Assembly: GCA_017307375.1 (NCBI GenBank)
Contig: JAFKFH010000011.1
Coordinates: 62,001 to 126,000 of the forward strand
From: Alphaproteobacteria bacterium
GTDB lineage: Bacteria > Pseudomonadota > Alphaproteobacteria > Ferrovibrionales > Ferrovibrionaceae
Direction of reading: 5' to 3'
Length of the DNA: 64,000 nt
Of the stretch, positions 13,469-20,004 are shown in pieces. Both the position numbers and the translations under genes were made by a program. The notes under the pieces were generated by a model that saw only the letters and a list, made by a program, of their open reading frames with translations, made no database searches and was not told where the DNA came from. Position 1 is the stretch's first letter; the number at the start of each line of letters is the position of its first letter.

Positions 13469-14922
13469 GCGCGCCTCGCCGCCTGCACGGAAGCCGCGGC
13501 GGCGCGCGCCACCTGGGCATCGTCGAAGGGGCGCACGACGCTGCCCACGACCTGCCCCTGTTCATGTCCCTTGCCGGCGATCACCAGAACGTCGCCGCGG
13601 GCAAGTCCAGCGACGCCTGCCGCGATCGCCTCGGCGCGATCACCGATCTCGATGGCACCGGGACAGGCGGCCAGCGCGGCGGCGCGGATGATGGCCGGAT
13701 CCTCGCTGCGCGGGTTGTCGTCGGTGACGATCGCGCGGTCGGCATGGGCGGCGACGGCCGCGCCCATAAGCGGCCGCTTGCCGGGGTCGCGGTCGCCGCC
13801 GCAGCCGAACACGCAGACCAGCTTGCCCGCGACATGCGGGCGGATCGCGGTCAGCACGGTGGCGAGCGCATCGGGCGTATGGGCGTAGTCGACGATGACC
13901 GAGGCGCCGTCGACCTCGGCCACCTTCTGCATGCGGCCGGGCACGCCGGTCAGATGGGGCAGCGCGGCGATTGCCTTGTCGGCATCGATGCCGCAGGCCA
14001 CCGCCAGCCCCAGCGCGCAGAGCACGTTATGGGCCTGGAACGCGCCGAGCAGCGGCAGATCGAAATCATAATGCCGCCCGAACAGCAGCGCGCCGAGGCT
14101 GAGGCCCGACGCGACCGGTTCCAGCCGCGTCATCATCAGGGCGTCGCCGCCGCGGCCATAGGTCCACAGCGTCAGCCCGCGATCGCGCGCGGCCCGGGTA
14201 AATGCGGCCGATTCCGCATCGTCGGCATTGACGACCGCGGTACCGTCGGCCTGCACCAGCCGCGTGAACAGGCCCAGCTTGGCGGCACGGTAGCTCGCCA
14301 TGTCACGGTGGTAGTCGAGGTGGTCGCGGCTCAAATTCGTGAAGCCGGCAGCCTGGATCGCGATGCCGTCGAGACGATGCTGGTCGATGCCGTGGCTGGA
14401 TGCCTCGATGGCGAGGAAGTCGATCTCGCGCCCGGCAAGGTCGGCGAGTTCGCGGTGCAGCCGCACCGGATCGGGCGTGGTATGGCCGAGGTCGCGATTG
14501 ACGCCCGGTCCGCGCACGCCCAGCGTGCCGAGGCTGCCGGCCCGCAGTCCTGCCTGGGCGGCGATCTCCGCCGCGAAGCTCGCCACCGAGGTCTTGCCGT
14601 TGGTGCCGGTCACCGCCGCCACCTTCGGCGGCTGGCCCGGATGGACACGGGCCGCGAGCCGGGCGAAGGCGGCGCGCGGCTCCGCCGTCCGGATCACCGC
14701 CACCCGGTTCTCGTCGACCGCGACGTCGCCGCCGACCAGGATGGCGGCGGCCCCCCGGGCCAGCGCGTCGTCGATGTAGCGCGCCCCGTCGTCACGCGCC
14801 CCGGTCAGCGCGGCGAACAGGAAACCCGGCCGGACCTCGCGGCTGTCGGCGGTCAGGCCGGCGATCTCGCGATCGCCGCTCACCTGGCCGTCGATGCCGG
14901 ACATGAGGTCAGTTAGACGCAA
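13465..14922 (-). CDS. murE: UDP-MurNAc-L-Ala-D-Glu--2,6-diaminopimelate ligase
   Basis: Adds the third amino acid of the stem peptide. The 485-residue protein shows the ATP loop AVTGTNGKTSVASFAAEIA, the segment NLSRDHLDYHRDMASYRAAK and VDYAHTPDAL. The loop TDDNPRSEDP contains the DNPR motif that in known MurE enzymes binds meso-diaminopimelate rather than lysine, as expected in a Gram-negative. The ATG at 14922 overlaps ftsI by 14 bases; a later in-frame ATG at 14904 (MSGIDG) is a possible alternative start. Confidence 0.97.
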   Translation of the reverse strand: MRLTDLMSGIDGQVSGDREIAGLTADSREVRPGFLFAALTGARDDGARYIDDALARGAAAILVGGDVAVDENRVAVIRTAEPRAAFARLAARVHPGQPPKVAAVTGTNGKTSVASFAAEIAAQAGLRAGSLGTLGVRGPGVNRDLGHTTPDPVRLHRELADLAGREIDFLAIEASSHGIDQHRLDGIAIQAAGFTNLSRDHLDYHRDMASYRAAKLGLFTRLVQADGTAVVNADDAESAAFTRAARDRGLTLWTYGRGGDALMMTRLEPVASGLSLGALLFGRHYDFDLPLLGAFQAHNVLCALGLAVACGIDADKAIAALPHLTGVPGRMQKVAEVDGASVIVDYAHTPDALATVLTAIRPHVAGKLVCVFGCGGDRDPGKRPLMGAAVAAHADRAIVTDDNPRSEDPAIIRAAALAACPGAIEIGDRAEAIAAGVAGLARGDVLVIAGKGHEQGQVVGSVVRPFDDAQVARAAAASVQAARRA

Positions 14923-16693
14923 TCTTCTTCTCCGATTGCGGCGCGTGCACGCCGAGCGACATGACCTGCTGGACCTGGGGGCTGTTGTCGTCGACCGGCT
15001 CGACCCCCAGGATCGGCGCGATGCGCGAGATCACCCGGCCCACGGTCGGGGCGGAGTTCCAGCCGGCGGTGGCGAAGCCGTAGGTTTCCTTGCGGCCCTT
15101 GGGCTCGTCCAGCACGCCGATGACGAGATAACGCGGCTTGTTCAGCGGGAAGACGCCGACGAACGAGGTCATCAGCTTCTTGCGCATGTAGCCGCCATGC
15201 GCGCCGACCTTTTCGGACGTGCCGGTCTTGCCGCCGACCAGATAGCCGTCGACGGCCGCCTGCTTGCCGGTGCCCTCGTCGACCACGAGATACATCAGCT
15301 TGCGCATCAGGTCGGACACGTCGGGGCGGACGACCCGCGTACCCGGCACCGCCACGCCTTCCGGCCGTTTCAGCAGCGTGGCCGGGCGCAGGATGCCGCC
15401 ATTGGCGATCGCCGCGGTCGCGACGCCGAGCTGCAGCGGCGAAATCGACAGGCCATGACCGAACGAGATCGTCATCGTCTCGACGGTCTTCCAGTTGCGC
15501 GGAACCAGCGGCGCGCCGACTTCGGGCAGCTCGATCTGCGCCTTCTTCAGCAGGCCGAGACGATCGAGGAAGGCGCGTTGCACGGCCGGCCCGGCTTCGA
15601 CCGCCATCTTGGCCGAGCCGATGTTGGACGAATACTTGTAGATCTCGGGTACGGTCAGCCAGCGGTTCTTGGCGTGGTCGTCCTTGATCGTGAACCGGCC
15701 GACCACGATCGGACGGCTGGCATCGTAGGAGGAATTGATCTTGGCGTTGCCGTTCTCGAGGACCATCGCCGTATTGATGGTCTTCATCGTCGAACCCATC
15801 TCGTAGACGCCGAGCGTGATTCGATTGAACCGGGCCTCGTCGCTGGCCGTGCCGGGACGGATCGGATCGAAGTCCGGCAGCGAGACCAGCCCCAGCACTT
15901 CGCCGGTATTGATGTCGAGCACCAGCCCGCCGCCGCCGATCGCGTCGAAATACTCGACCGAGCGGCCGATCTCGTCGCGCAGCGCATGCTGGACGCGCAG
16001 GTCGAGGGCGAGTTCGAGCGGTTCGCCGGCCTTGGCGGTGTCGCGCAGTTCCTCGTCCAGCGTCTGCTCGATGCCCGAAATGCCGCGGCGGTCGATGTCG
16101 GTATAGCCAACGACATGCACGGCCAGCGGCCCGAGCGGGTAGAGCCGCCGCTCCTCGTCCTGGAACATCAGCCCGGGCAGGCCCAGGCGATTGATCTCGT
16201 ATTGCTGCCGCGGCGTCAGGTTGCGTTTGAGCCAGACGAAGCTCTTGCCCGAGCCGAGCCGGCCGACGAGTTCCTCGCGCGGCAGATCGGGCAGCACCGT
16301 CAGCAGGCGGTTGGCGGTTTCGTCGGGATTGCCGATCTGGCGCGTGTCGGCATAGAGCGAGGCCATGCGCAGATTGGTCGCGATCATCGTGCCGTTGCGG
16401 TCGGTGATCGTGCGCCGCTCCATCGCCGGGGCGAAGCCGCGGGCCGAGCCGCCGTCGCCGCGCGCCATCGACGGTTCCGAGACTAGGCTGGCCGGCACGG
16501 TCAACCAGGCGAGGCGCCCGACCAGCACGACGAAGACGCCGGCAAACAGCATGCCGCCGAACACCAGCCGGCCGCGACCGGTCTCGACCGCTTCCTTCAT
16601 GCGGCCGTCGAGCTTGACCAGGCTCGGCCGGGCCGAGATGTCGGCCGGCGTGCAGGTCGGCTTCGGCTTGGGTTTGCGGAAACGGCCGATCAT
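14909..16693 (-). CDS. ftsI: Septal peptidoglycan transpeptidase FtsI (PBP3)
   Basis: Class B penicillin-binding protein that crosslinks septal peptidoglycan in the periplasm. At 594 residues it has a cytoplasmic N-terminus of about 45 residues, one membrane anchor (about 46-65), a dimerisation domain (residues 90-250) and the transpeptidase domain. The three catalytic motifs are visible: SxxK in EMGSTMKTI near residue 300, SSN in YKYSSNIGSAK, and KTGT in VGGKTGTSEKV near residue 488. The start overlaps the ftsL stop by 4 bases. Confidence 0.97.
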   Translation of the reverse strand: MIGRFRKPKPKPTCTPADISARPSLVKLDGRMKEAVETGRGRLVFGGMLFAGVFVVLVGRLAWLTVPASLVSEPSMARGDGGSARGFAPAMERRTITDRNGTMIATNLRMASLYADTRQIGNPDETANRLLTVLPDLPREELVGRLGSGKSFVWLKRNLTPRQQYEINRLGLPGLMFQDEERRLYPLGPLAVHVVGYTDIDRRGISGIEQTLDEELRDTAKAGEPLELALDLRVQHALRDEIGRSVEYFDAIGGGGLVLDINTGEVLGLVSLPDFDPIRPGTASDEARFNRITLGVYEMGSTMKTINTAMVLENGNAKINSSYDASRPIVVGRFTIKDDHAKNRWLTVPEIYKYSSNIGSAKMAVEAGPAVQRAFLDRLGLLKKAQIELPEVGAPLVPRNWKTVETMTISFGHGLSISPLQLGVATAAIANGGILRPATLLKRPEGVAVPGTRVVRPDVSDLMRKLMYLVVDEGTGKQAAVDGYLVGGKTGTSEKVGAHGGYMRKKLMTSFVGVFPLNKPRYLVIGVLDEPKGRKETYGFATAGWNSAPTVGRVISRIAPILGVEPVDDNSPQVQQVMSLGVHAPQSEKKIASN

Positions 16694-17097
16694 GGCTGCA
16701 CCATCGCAGGCTTGACGACGGGCTTGGTCACCGGACCGACCGGCCGTGCCGTGGGCTTGGGCGGCTGGCGCGGCCCGCCGGCCTTGGGCGCCTGCGCCGC
16801 CAGGGCTGCCGCGGCCACCCCCTTGAGCGGCAGGTCGGCCAGCGGGATGATCTGGCGCGCCTTGACGGTCGCGAATTCCGGCAGATAGCGCTCGACCCGC
16901 TCCTGCAGCACGTCAGGCCGGGTCATGTAGGACCATTCGGCATTCAGGACCTCGATGTTCTCGCGCTCCTGCGCCAGTTGGCGGTTCATCCCCGCCAGGC
17001 GGTCGTCGAGCCGCTGAACCTCGTAGGACAGCTGGTAGAGGCCATAGGAGACGCCGGCGGTCAGCGCCAGGGCGACGAAGGTAACGGCGCGGCTCAT
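16690..17097 (-). CDS. ftsL: Cell division protein FtsL
   Basis: Small bitopic divisome protein; partners with FtsB and FtsQ to activate FtsW/FtsI. The 135-residue protein has a membrane segment right at the N-terminus (about residues 4-22) and then a leucine-zipper-type coiled coil ([18 protein letters not shown]), as in FtsL. The C-terminal 45 residues are rich in Pro, Lys and Ala, a feature of several alphaproteobacterial FtsL proteins. Sequence conservation is weak in this family, so the call rests on topology, coiled coil and position between rsmH and ftsI. Confidence 0.88.
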
Positions 17098-18062
17098 GCT
17101 GCGGCCTCCAGGTCGTCGGCCGGCCAGGCCGGCGCGGCGGTCCGCTCGGCGGCACGCAGCTTGGCCGAACGCGCCCGCGGATTGGCCGCGGCCTCGGCGG
17201 CGGCAGGGGCGACGACGCCCTTGTGCACCAGCCGGAAAGACGGCTGGCGCGCATCCTGCGCCTGCGGCGGCAGATGGCGGGAACCGCCCCCGCCCTTGCC
17301 GCAGCGGCGATCGAGGAAATGCTTCACGACGCGATCCTCGAGGGAATGAAAGGTCACGACGGCCAGCCGACCGGCCGGCCGCAGAAGATGCTCCGCCGCG
17401 GCAAGGCCGCGGCGCAGTTCGCCCAGTTCGTCGTTGACGGCGATGCGCAGCGCCTGGAACGTCCGGGTCGCGCCGTGATGGCCGGGTTCGGAGCGCACCA
17501 CGCGGGCGACGATCGCGGCAAGCTGCGACGTGCGGGTGATCGGCGCCTCGGCGCGGGCCTGCACGATCGCGCGGGCCACGTGGCGCGAGCGACGCTCCTC
17601 GCCGTAGAGATAGATCAGGTCGGCCAATTCGGCCTCGGGCAGCGTATTGACCAGATCGGCGGCGCTGTCGCCGCGGGCGCCCATCCGCATGTCGAGCGGA
17701 CCGTCGTTCATGAAGCTGAAGCCGCGCTCGGCCTCGTCGAGTTGCATCGACGAGACGCCGATATCGAGCGCGATGCCGTCGACCGCGTCGACGCCGGCCT
17801 CGGCCAGCAGCTGCGTCATGTCGCCGAAGCGCCCCTCGATCACGGTCAGACGACCGGCCATCTCGCCGGCCAGCGCGCGGCCGATCGCGATCGCGCGCGG
17901 ATCACGGTCGATCCCGATCACCCGGCAATCGGCCGCAGCCAGGATCGCGCGGGTGTATCCGGCCGCCCCCAGCGTGCCATCGACGACGACGGCGCCGGCC
18001 TGCGGGTTCAAGGCAGCCACGACCTCTTCGAGCAGAACGGGAATGTGCGGCCGGGCGGTCAT
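17094..18062 (-). CDS. rsmH: 16S rRNA (cytosine1402-N4)-methyltransferase RsmH
   Basis: SAM-dependent methyltransferase (MraW) that modifies C1402 of 16S rRNA in the ribosomal P site. The 322-residue protein starts [20 protein letters not shown]. Family features are the SAM loop [43 protein letters not shown] and [13 protein letters not shown]. The ATG at 18062 overlaps the mraZ stop by 4 bases. The C-terminal 25 residues are Ala-rich and not conserved. Confidence 0.97.
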
Positions 18063-18490
18063 GACGGCCGCCCCATGCGCGCTTCGCGGGCACGGGCCGC
18101 GGCCTGGGCCTGGCGCTCGGCCCAGCCCTCGGGGCTCCACAGCATGAAGCTCTTGCGCATGCCGGTGAACACGACCGTGTCGGTCAGCCCGGCATGGGCG
18201 ATCATTTCCTCGGGCAGCACGATCCGCCCGCCCTCGTCCCATTCCAGCCGGCGCACGTTCGGCACCAGCGCCATCGTGCGATCCTCGCGCTCGACCTCGG
18301 GCAGGCCGTCCCATTCGGCCAGCAGGGCATCGAGATAGCTGCCGGTGCCACCCTCCACCGCCTGATGGAACAGGTTCGGGAACAGCACCGCCCCCTCCCA
18401 GCCGTCGGCCTTCAACAAGGCACGGAATTCGGCCGGGACGGAGACCCGCCCCTTCCGATCCAGCTTGTTGGTGTAGGTGCCGACGAACAT
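18059..18490 (-). CDS. mraZ: Transcriptional regulator MraZ
   Basis: AbrB-fold DNA-binding protein that in E. coli represses its own dcw operon. The 143-residue protein starts [20 protein letters not shown] and has the two SpoVT/AbrB-like halves, each with the DxxxR motif (DRKGR at residues 11-15 and DEGGR near 85). It is the first gene of the dcw cluster. Directly upstream, four ATGG(G/T) repeats at 10-base spacing overlap its promoter, fitting autoregulation. Confidence 0.97.
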
Positions 18491-18570
18491 GCGGCCGAAC
18501 TCTCCCCGCTTCCATGTCCCTTGCCGCCCCGCAGCGGCCCCCTGCCAACGGCATCGCCGGCAGGGAATTT

Positions 18571-18612
18571 ATGGGACGTCATGGGATAGCATGGTACACG
18601 ATGGGTCGTCAA
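18571..18612 (-). promoter_or_regulatory. dcw promoter overlapped by four MraZ-box-like repeats
   Basis: On the strand of mraZ a -35 TTGACG (18612-18607) and a -10 CTATCC (18589-18584) stand 17 bases apart; the bases around the -10 also fit the GCTANNNC form of alphaproteobacterial promoters. On the opposite strand four direct repeats start at 18571, 18581, 18591 and 18601 (ATGGG, ATGGG, ATGGT, ATGGG), exactly 10 bases apart. In E. coli MraZ binds TGGGN repeats separated by 5 bases, which is the same geometry. The array covers the -10, the spacer and part of the -35, so binding should block transcription. The repeats are read on the strand opposite to the gene, which should be checked against known sites. 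Confidence 0.75.
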
Positions 18613-18725
18613 CGCCACGTTAACTGTAAAACCTAGGAAAATGGCCGTTCTCAGGCGATTTCCGGTTCGGCACGGCCGTCCAGGAACCCGGGCATTCCGT
18701 CGCGATTTCGGGGGGTTGTCCCTTG

Positions 18726-18751
18726 GGAACTCATCCGCGTCCCATGGCGTT
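18726..18751 (+). promoter_or_regulatory. EcfG-type general stress response promoter
   Basis: GGAAC at 18726-18730 and CGTT at 18748-18751 are separated by 17 bases. This matches the known EcfG sigma factor consensus of Alphaproteobacteria (GGAAC, 16-17 bases, CGTT). The site lies 51 bases before the start of the DUF883 gene and reads towards it, so this pair is probably switched on in stress or stationary phase. With the dcw promoter it accounts for the 312-base divergent gap between 18490 and 18803. Confidence 0.65.
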
Positions 18752-18802
18752 GCACTGGCCGTCCTCAAGCGTCCCCGTCCCTGCCCCCAGGAGTCCCAAG
18801 CC

Positions 18803-19093
18803 ATGACCACGAAGACCGCCGCCGAGACGATCGAGAACGCCGCGCCCGACCTGGAAAAGGACCTGGCGGCGCTTCGCGACGATTTCGCCCGGGTGAAAGC
18901 CGATATCAGCCGGATCACCCAGGCCTTGGGCCAGCGGGTGGGCGAGAAGGTCGACGGGGCGGTCGAGGAAGCCGCCGTGATGGGCCGGGCCGGCATCGAC
19001 ACGGTCGAGGCGAAGATCCATGAGCGTCCGCTGACTTCGATCCTGGTCGCGTTCGGCATCGGCGTGCTGATCGGCAAGCTGGTCGACCGTTGA
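18803..19093 (+). CDS. DUF883 / ElaB-YqjD-like membrane-anchored protein
   Basis: Small stress-type protein of 96 residues. I chose the ATG at 18803 because CAGGAG precedes it and the upstream in-frame stretch does not look like protein. Residues 20-75 form a charged, heptad-like helix (EKDLAALRDDFARVKADISR) and the C-terminus is a short membrane anchor (TSILVAFGIGVLIGKLVDR) ending in a basic residue, the layout of the YqjD/ElaB family. In E. coli those proteins bind ribosomes at the membrane in stationary phase; whether this one does is not known. It overlaps the next gene by 4 bases. Confidence 0.8.
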   Translation: MTTKTAAETIENAAPDLEKDLAALRDDFARVKADISRITQALGQRVGEKVDGAVEEAAVMGRAGIDTVEAKIHERPLTSILVAFGIGVLIGKLVDR

Positions 19094-19599
19094 GCCCGAT
19101 GTTCAAGCCGCTGCTGCTGGCCGCCGCCGCGCCAGCGGTGGCGGCCGCCCGGGCCGAGGCGCGGCGCCTGGCCTGGCGCGGTGCCCTGATCCTGGCGGCG
19201 ATCGGGGTCGCCATCATCGGCATCGGTTTCGCCGCGCTGGCCGCCTACCGTGCCCTGGCGCTCGACTTGGGCGAGCCGAAGGCGGCCGCGATCATCGCCG
19301 GCAGCCTGCTGGCACTGGCGGTGTTGCTGGTGCTGGCCGAAATCTCGATCGGCCGCAGCCGGCGCCTGCTGCATCAGGTACCGCAGCATCCCGCCGGGAT
19401 CACGACGGCGGATATCGCCGCCGTGGCAATGGCCTTGCAGGCCAAGGCAGGCGCGGTCAGGACAAGCGCCGGCGACACGCTGCGCGCGAATTCGGTGCCG
19501 CTGGCCCTCGCAGCGCTGGCCGCCGGCGCCGCAGTCGGCTACAGCCCCGCGTTGCGCAACGCGCTGCGCGATCTGATCGGCATGGGGCCGAAGGATTAA
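19090..19599 (+). CDS. YqjE-like / holin superfamily III membrane protein
   Basis: Probable inner-membrane protein of up to 169 residues. The likely start is the TTG at 19090, which overlaps the upstream stop as TTGA; an ATG at 19099 is the alternative. Two adjacent membrane helices lie at about residues 30-52 and 65-85, and a third weak hydrophobic stretch lies near the C-terminus (VPLALAALAAGAAVGYS). A DUF883-YqjE pair is common in Proteobacteria and both are usually stress-induced, which fits the EcfG-type promoter upstream. The name holin reflects domain similarity only; I see no lysis genes. Confidence 0.65.
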   Translation: MSPMFKPLLLAAAAPAVAAARAEARRLAWRGALILAAIGVAIIGIGFAALAAYRALALDLGEPKAAAIIAGSLLALAVLLVLAEISIGRSRRLLHQVPQHPAGITTADIAAVAMALQAKAGAVRTSAGDTLRANSVPLALAALAAGAAVGYSPALRNALRDLIGMGPKD

Positions 19600-19601
19600 G
19601 C

Positions 19602-20004
19602 GTCAGACGGCCTGTAAGCCGGGTTCTGTTCCCCGCCGAAGCGGTTCGATGGCCATTCCTCTGGGACGTCCGTCACCGGACGCCTCGCGCGACCGACCCG
19701 GGCGGCGAGCCGGACACAGCCCCGCCCATCGTTGCCGATGGACTGCCGCCCCTACTTGGTCTTGCTCCCGGTGGGGTTTGCCATGCCGATCCCGTTGCCG
19801 GGTTCGCGGTGCGCTCTTACCGCACCTTTTCACCCTTGCCGGCGGCGCCTTGCGGCAGGCCGGCGGTTAGTTCTCTGTGGCACTGATCCCTAGGGTCGCC
19901 CCCGCCGGACGTTATCCGGCACCGTGTCTCCGTGGAGCCCGGACTTTCCTCACCCGCCCGCCCTGTGACAGGCACGCGAATGCGGCCATCCGGCCGTCTG
20001 ACCG
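19602..20004 (-). ncRNA. rnpB: RNase P RNA (class A)
   Basis: Catalytic RNA that removes the 5' leader of tRNA precursors. On the minus strand I read the hallmark blocks GAGGAAAGTCCGGGCTCC (about 19934-19951), GCCACAGAGAA near 19870-19880, and the 3' block ACAGAACCCGGCTTACAGG. The 5' TCAGACGGCC and the 3' GGCCGTCTGA pair perfectly as helix P1 and fix the ends near 20004 and 19602. The length of about 400 nucleotides is normal. It converges with the YqjE-like gene, whose stop is two bases away. Confidence 0.95.

Follow-up and report, generated by a model that had tools for sequence, protein, structure and literature searches.

The four ATGG(G/T) boxes upstream of mraZ in the window, by which the whole analysed stretch of 64,000 nucleotides is meant, most probably form an autoregulatory MraZ operator that in Alphaproteobacteria is inverted over the core promoter and represses by occlusion, a reading to which we assign a probability of roughly 0.86. 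The boxes, their 10-bp period and their strand are conserved across the class; they hold a fixed relation to the promoter, whose predicted starts fit published ones in two lineages, and the array stays with mraZ.

The box array and promoter upstream of mraZ

The array lies 81–115 nt upstream of mraZ and, with the boxes on the + strand and the mraZ reading frame on the − strand, reads opposite to the gene. Box 1 (ATGGG, 18571–18575) is the nearest to mraZ and is followed by box 2 (ATGGG, 18581–18585), box 3 (ATGGT, 18591–18595), which is one base off, and box 4 (ATGGG, 18601–18605). The initial annotation had described ATGG(G/T) four times at exact 10-base steps, with one box changed and all of them on the strand opposite to the gene, and both points are borne out, the boxes beginning at 18571, 18581, 18591 and 18601. 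Four TGGK words at 10-bp spacing occur once in the 7.54 Mb genome, at this array, with about 0.1 expected from base composition, and ATGGK in four copies with at most three mismatches gives three overlapping matches in the window, all at the array, where shuffled sequences lead one to expect 0.04. Two boxes alone are unremarkable, since the pair TGGGN6TGGG is matched once in the window, where 2.35 matches would be expected.

The array had also been described as overlapping a 17-spaced TTGACG/CTATCC promoter, and both elements are present. The −35 element TTGACG (18607–18612, − strand) has box 4 just after it, and CTATCC (18589–18584) lies 17 bases from it; if TATCCC is instead read as part of an extended −10, TG-C-TATCCC (18583–18591, − strand), the spacer is 18. 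This extended −10 spans the spacer between boxes 3 and 2: the last gene-strand base of box 3 falls in its TG, and box 2 (CCCAT on the gene strand) overlaps its other end. Counting 7 nt past the −10, transcription is predicted to start at 18575–18577 (− strand), adjoining box 1 and giving a leader of about 86 nt. A generic sigma-70 scan of 18400–18820 found no promoter; its rule requires the −10 to end in T, as neither TATCCC nor CTATCC does, and with that scan negative the promoter is called from conservation and published start sites.

The proposed autoregulator encoded downstream, MraZ (18059–18490, − strand, 143 amino acids), matches Pfam family PF02381 with an E value of 2.4e-17. It is followed on the same strand by rsmH (mraW), the second dcw gene (17094–18062; PF01795, E value 1.1e-94), by a small open reading frame placed at the ftsL position by location, with no Pfam match (16690–17097), and by a gene for an ftsI-type penicillin-binding protein (14909–16693; PF00905 and PF03717). 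The window protein has both conserved D-x-x-x-R motifs of MraZ (D11/R15 and D85/R89), which have a role in DNA binding, and residues D11, K13, G14, R15, D85, G88 and R89 are invariant among 11 alphaproteobacterial MraZ sequences; the relatives of solved structure identified by sequence are 1n0e, 9qlr, 9qlg and 9sx6. On the other side of the array, two small + strand open reading frames lie divergently within 18803–19599, between mraZ and rnpB, one of them weakly DUF883-like and below the Pfam cut-off. The RNase P RNA gene (rnpB, RF00010) precedes mraZ, in the same orientation, in the window (19599–20001, − strand), in Sinorhizobium meliloti and in genome G045, so that this neighbourhood is common to the three; its coordinates in the relatives are 2179–2576 (L057) and 2433–2813 (L014). 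In an Rfam scan of the loci the only matches were to RNase P RNA, in seven loci of which five are from Rhodobacteraceae; as this is the sole family matched, the mraZ leader is not one that Rfam recognises.

Conservation, strand and association with mraZ

The survey covered 173 upstream regions from 99 families, consisting of the 53 best-matching loci and 120 fetched stretches among the MraZ matches listed; genome G115 was left out, its contig stopping 138 nt upstream of mraZ. At least three TGG boxes at 10-bp spacing, on the strand opposite to mraZ and within 350 bp, were found in 155 of the 173 regions (156 with locus L037 turned), and at least four in 132. Within the first 53 loci, 49 carried an opposite-strand array and none a gene-strand array, and arrays on the gene strand number two in the full set of 173. 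Periods from 6 to 15 other than 10 gave at most three loci each on either strand, and a Markov control yielded a mean of 0.36 arrays with a maximum of 2. The opposite strand is thus the rule in the class and not a quirk of the window genome, and the conservation expected upstream of mraZ in relatives is found.

A matrix grown from the 173 rows reads CCATTGACgCCCATnnnttCCCATGnTATCCCATnnnntCCCA on the gene strand, its most informative columns being those of boxes 3 and 2 together with the intervening spacer. It scores above 15 in 166 rows and at or below 15 in 7 of 173, and in the same regions the other strand reaches at most 1.9 against a true-strand median of 48; having been trained on those 173 rows, the matrix gives counts that describe and do not test. 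In the 166 sites CCA stands at index 45 (box 1) in 121, at index 35 (box 2) in 159, at index 25 (box 3) in 159 and at index 15 (box 4) in 153. The −10 region is preceded by TG in 153 sites and begins with TA in 155, with the complete TGnTATCC in 128, and exact TTGAC occurs 17–18 bp from the −10 in 138; at the equivalent places of the two neighbouring spacers, TG is found in only 34 and 36 sites and TAT in 17 and 22. The −35 element has two positions on the box grid, TTGAC standing at index 7 in 37 sites and at index 8 in 101, and the −10 column is fixed. Strict TGG counting undercounts degenerate arrays: 12 of its 17 misses score above 15 with the matrix, and the other five (L043, L047, L083, L109 and L148) score at or below it. 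By the same threshold the array stays with mraZ in 95 of the 99 families, with no locus above 15 in the remaining four.

Variants of the arrangement occur within the class. In Tistrella (L058, record pTM3) and its apparent relatives (L067, L158 and L162), opposite-strand boxes lie about 200 nt upstream, without TGnTATCCC. In Sphingomonas and three genomes of family f13 (L289, L290, L291 and L326), the opposite-strand boxes are of CGGG/GGGG type, giving CCC at 10-bp spacing on the gene strand, the f13 rows having been read by eye; the changed box core together with a divergent MraZ may reflect co-variation of protein and operator. Among named records, Shinella, Rhizobium leguminosarum, Tistrella, Sphingomonas and two Sinorhizobium records have the boxes on the opposite strand. 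An exception is G029 (L292), a genome assigned to the class, in which the array is on the gene strand, some 190 nt before the match to a divergent MraZ. Its mraZ may be of foreign origin, and a BLAST comparison of the protein with 19 sequences, made with this in view, did not separate alphaproteobacterial from other MraZ.

The predicted promoter was compared with the dcw leader lengths given by Weber et al. (2016; PMC5089854), which are 268 nt for Rhodobacter sphaeroides, 170 nt for S. meliloti and no more than 70 nt for other species including Caulobacter crescentus. In S. meliloti Ak57, the rule of 7 nt past the −10 predicts a leader of 171 nt from the annotated start codon, against the 170 nt reported there. 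In Rhodobacteraceae, nearly all outside the matrix training (G039, L346, is alone in both sets), the matrix scores above 5 in 32 of 35 named-record loci and 27 of 29 other loci; loci with less than 380 nt upstream were left out (2 of 37 and 1 of 30, respectively). The predicted starts have medians of 268 and 270 nt (ranges 258–311 and 244–315), against the 268 nt of R. sphaeroides (PMC5089854), distances being counted from a conserved F residue of MraZ located at the start codon or a few codons past it, and the comparison being one of a published distance with other Rhodobacteraceae loci, the named ones being without R. sphaeroides itself. At least three strict TGG boxes remain in 5 of the 35 named and 2 of the 29 other loci, so that in Rhodobacteraceae the promoter is kept and the array is mostly eroded; an example of such a promoter is TTGATTTCCATGAATTCCCATGGCATCCC, at about the distance of the UpsM start (L182–L218 and L330–L359).

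Eighteen alphaproteobacterial genomes have no match to the MraZ profile, a profile which did find divergent MraZ elsewhere, and rsmH was found in 17 of them. In the scan, L308 (G122) and L311 (G087, for which the other locus, L316, was used) were left out as no N-terminal motif was found. None of the 16 scannable genomes has an array in the 600 nt before rsmH, the best score being 0.2. That score belongs to G428 (L302), which keeps TTGACG, TGGTACCC and box 3, with boxes 2 and 4 unmatched and CCCGC at the box 1 position; its congener G298 (L300) has lost the match to boxes 1, 2 and 4, and the two genomes, being one lineage, count once. The lineage belongs to the family of G205 and is thus a case where a TTGACG/TGnTACCC promoter persists before rsmH without MraZ, most boxes having decayed. 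Genome-wide, exact TGGG in four copies has 55 matches in 142 alphaproteobacterial genomes outside the low-complexity genome G091, of which 45 lie within 400 bp of a listed mraZ, two lie elsewhere and eight are in genomes whose mraZ place is not listed; a backward control gave three matches outside G091 in the 142 genomes. The array thus has what is expected of an MraZ operator: three or more direct boxes of TGG(G) type with a 10-bp period upstream of mraZ at the dcw head, kept in relatives with mraZ and absent from the 16 scannable genomes that lack it, with few strict arrays in Rhodobacteraceae.

Outside the class the array is mostly on the gene strand. A survey of 46 rows including Escherichia coli, two of them from the class of the window, was drawn from part of the matches in the same phylum, and in it 32 of the 44 non-alphaproteobacterial genomes (E. 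coli included) have at least three TGG boxes at 10-bp spacing on the gene strand, one of them (L286) with a further such run on the opposite strand; the other 12 of 44 have no run of at least three TGG at this period. Many of these rows show a −35/−10 pair upstream of the boxes, and in E. coli K-12 the gene strand reads TTGACA, TAAACT and then GTGGGAAATTGTGGGGCAAAGTGGG. With the array of these relatives on the gene strand and that of E. coli after the −10, the alphaproteobacterial operator is both inverted and placed further upstream. Ten named records, eight of them from three other phyla (two Bacilli, two Clostridia, two Actinomycetes, two Bacteroidota, Burkholderia stagnalis and Aeromonas), all have at least three GTG at 10-bp spacing on the gene strand, Tsukamurella carrying, in addition, three TGG further up on the other strand. 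Of 35 plasmid records, 13 were taken into the analysis. In several rows of the non-alphaproteobacterial family f167 (e.g. L247 and L282), read by eye, TTGACA stands 17 bp before GATATT or AATATT and the first gene-strand box continues from it. Overlap with the −10 is therefore not wholly peculiar to alphaproteobacteria, and by the same reading the f167 layout looks intermediate between those of E. coli and the alphaproteobacteria.

Proposed mechanism and competing explanations

The proposed mechanism starts from four and sometimes five direct ATGGG boxes, one helical turn apart on the strand opposite to mraZ, which are interleaved with the promoter. TTGAC stands at the last spacer, the extended −10 TGnTATCCC begins with the end of box 3, crosses the middle spacer and reaches into box 2, and transcription is predicted to start beside box 1. 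Consecutive boxes would be engaged by MraZ, which is described as an octameric ring in mollicutes and probably binds as a ring here too, and MraZ would so cover the −35, the −10 and the start; bound MraZ would then exclude RNA polymerase, resulting in negative autoregulation by occlusion. That the array overlaps the −35/−10 region had been anticipated, and this geometry is conserved in the class.

MraZ has been reported as an activator in one mycoplasma, so that repression is not to be assumed. The array may be an MraZ site from which MraZ activates or tunes the promoter, for example with one helical face each for MraZ and polymerase; we consider this unlikely, though it is the alternative that survives best. 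The box period equals one helical turn, most of the −10 core falls within a spacer, some half a turn away from the centres of the boxes, and overexpression of MraZ in Mycoplasma gallisepticum accompanies increased FtsZ, as described in PMC8475190. However, the −10 together with its TG extends into boxes 2 and 3, and the same source (PMC8475190) describes the MraZ proteins of E. coli and M. genitalium as repressors. Since the boxes recur every helical turn and most of the −10 core is in a spacer, opposite faces of the DNA might even be used by MraZ and RNA polymerase. In a broader scenario, the operator switched strand and merged with the core promoter early in the Alphaproteobacteria, at their root or close to it, and MraZ and polymerase occupy the 42 bp together; as a whole this is slightly less probable again. 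The strand flip contained in it is supported by the survey; co-occupancy of opposite faces, with MraZ pacing initiation, is speculation.

Much further behind, and improbable in our judgement, is a role of the array for another regulator or for the divergent DUF883-like gene (18803–19093, + strand), toward which the boxes read from about 200 bp away. Other regulators do act near mraZ, as CtrA motifs and a CenR ChIP signal have been reported upstream of it in S. meliloti and R. sphaeroides (PMC3616915, PMC9275681), but the CtrA consensus given in PMC3616915, TAA-N7-TTAAC, is unlike the boxes, and in box sequence and repeat period the array agrees with the MraZ site of E. coli. Moreover, the array stays with mraZ in the 95 of 99 families and is missing before rsmH in the 16 scannable MraZ-less genomes, and in S. 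meliloti the annotated gene upstream of the array is co-directional with mraZ, leaving no divergent gene there. The divergent-gene reading was rejected, as the array tracks mraZ and is present in S. meliloti without such a gene. The idea that the repeats are a promoter plus chance or structural DNA periodicity is the least credible of all: part of the conservation (TTGAC and TGnTATCC) is indeed promoter, but boxes 1 and 4, outside the −10, still show CCA in 121 and 153 of 166 sites, the Markov control and other periods yield almost nothing, and in the single MraZ-less lineage of G428 and G298 most boxes are lost in both genomes while G428 keeps the −35 and extended −10.

Read as an autoregulatory operator inverted over its promoter, the array suggests that the lineage rewired MraZ control of the division cluster, and it provides a case in which the orientation of an operator changed while its regulator stayed. 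In many bacteria the cluster for cell division and the cell wall has mraZ at its head, and a class-wide reversed and promoter-merged operator offers a testable layout of dcw control for model alphaproteobacteria.

Comparison with known MraZ systems

Direct work on MraZ has been carried out in E. coli, Burkholderia cenocepacia, Corynebacterium glutamicum and mycoplasmas, as summarized in PMC8475190 and PMC7761207. A literature search covering few subscription journals found, among the matches listed, no description of an alphaproteobacterial MraZ operator or of a reversed strand, and none appears in the MraZ or UpsM passages of PMC3616915, PMC10469942, PMC9275681, PMC11387232, PMC8959179, PMC4414408, PMC8625941 and PMC8307010. 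The MraZ operator as a kind is known, and its reversed strand and merger with the promoter in Alphaproteobacteria appear to be new, although an earlier description is possible.

The published R. sphaeroides UpsM/dcw promoter resembles the present prediction in that the Rhodobacteraceae promoter is found at about the published distance of 268 nt, and it differs from the window in its long leader with a terminator and sRNA (PMC5089854) and in its eroded boxes; a word search of that paper finds no mention of TGGG or repeat. The class-wide operator suggests that the UpsM promoter descended from it. The mollicute site, (AAAGTGKN3)3, shares with the window 10-bp direct repeats with a TG core and is bound there by the octamer, whereas its other flanking bases differ (PMC5282649); the octameric toroid of mollicute MraZ is also noted in PMC7761207. 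For PmraBc of B. cenocepacia, EMSA is reported to show MraZ bound to a fragment with four 10-bp repeats (PMC7761207); in contrast to the window, these repeats are of GTG type and lie past the −10 and over the start, and such repeats in the surveyed B. stagnalis record are on the gene strand.

The E. coli operator at Pmra, described in PMC8475190 and PMC7761207, likewise has TGGG boxes with a 10-bp period upstream of mraZ at the dcw head, and the agreement with E. coli geometry claimed in the initial annotation holds to this extent, although the boxes there are on the gene strand and after the −10. The window does not have this E. coli-type layout of gene-strand boxes between the −10 and mraZ: three clear boxes lie on the gene strand downstream of the −10 in E. 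coli, whereas four lie on the opposite strand in the window, reaching from the −35 to about +1.
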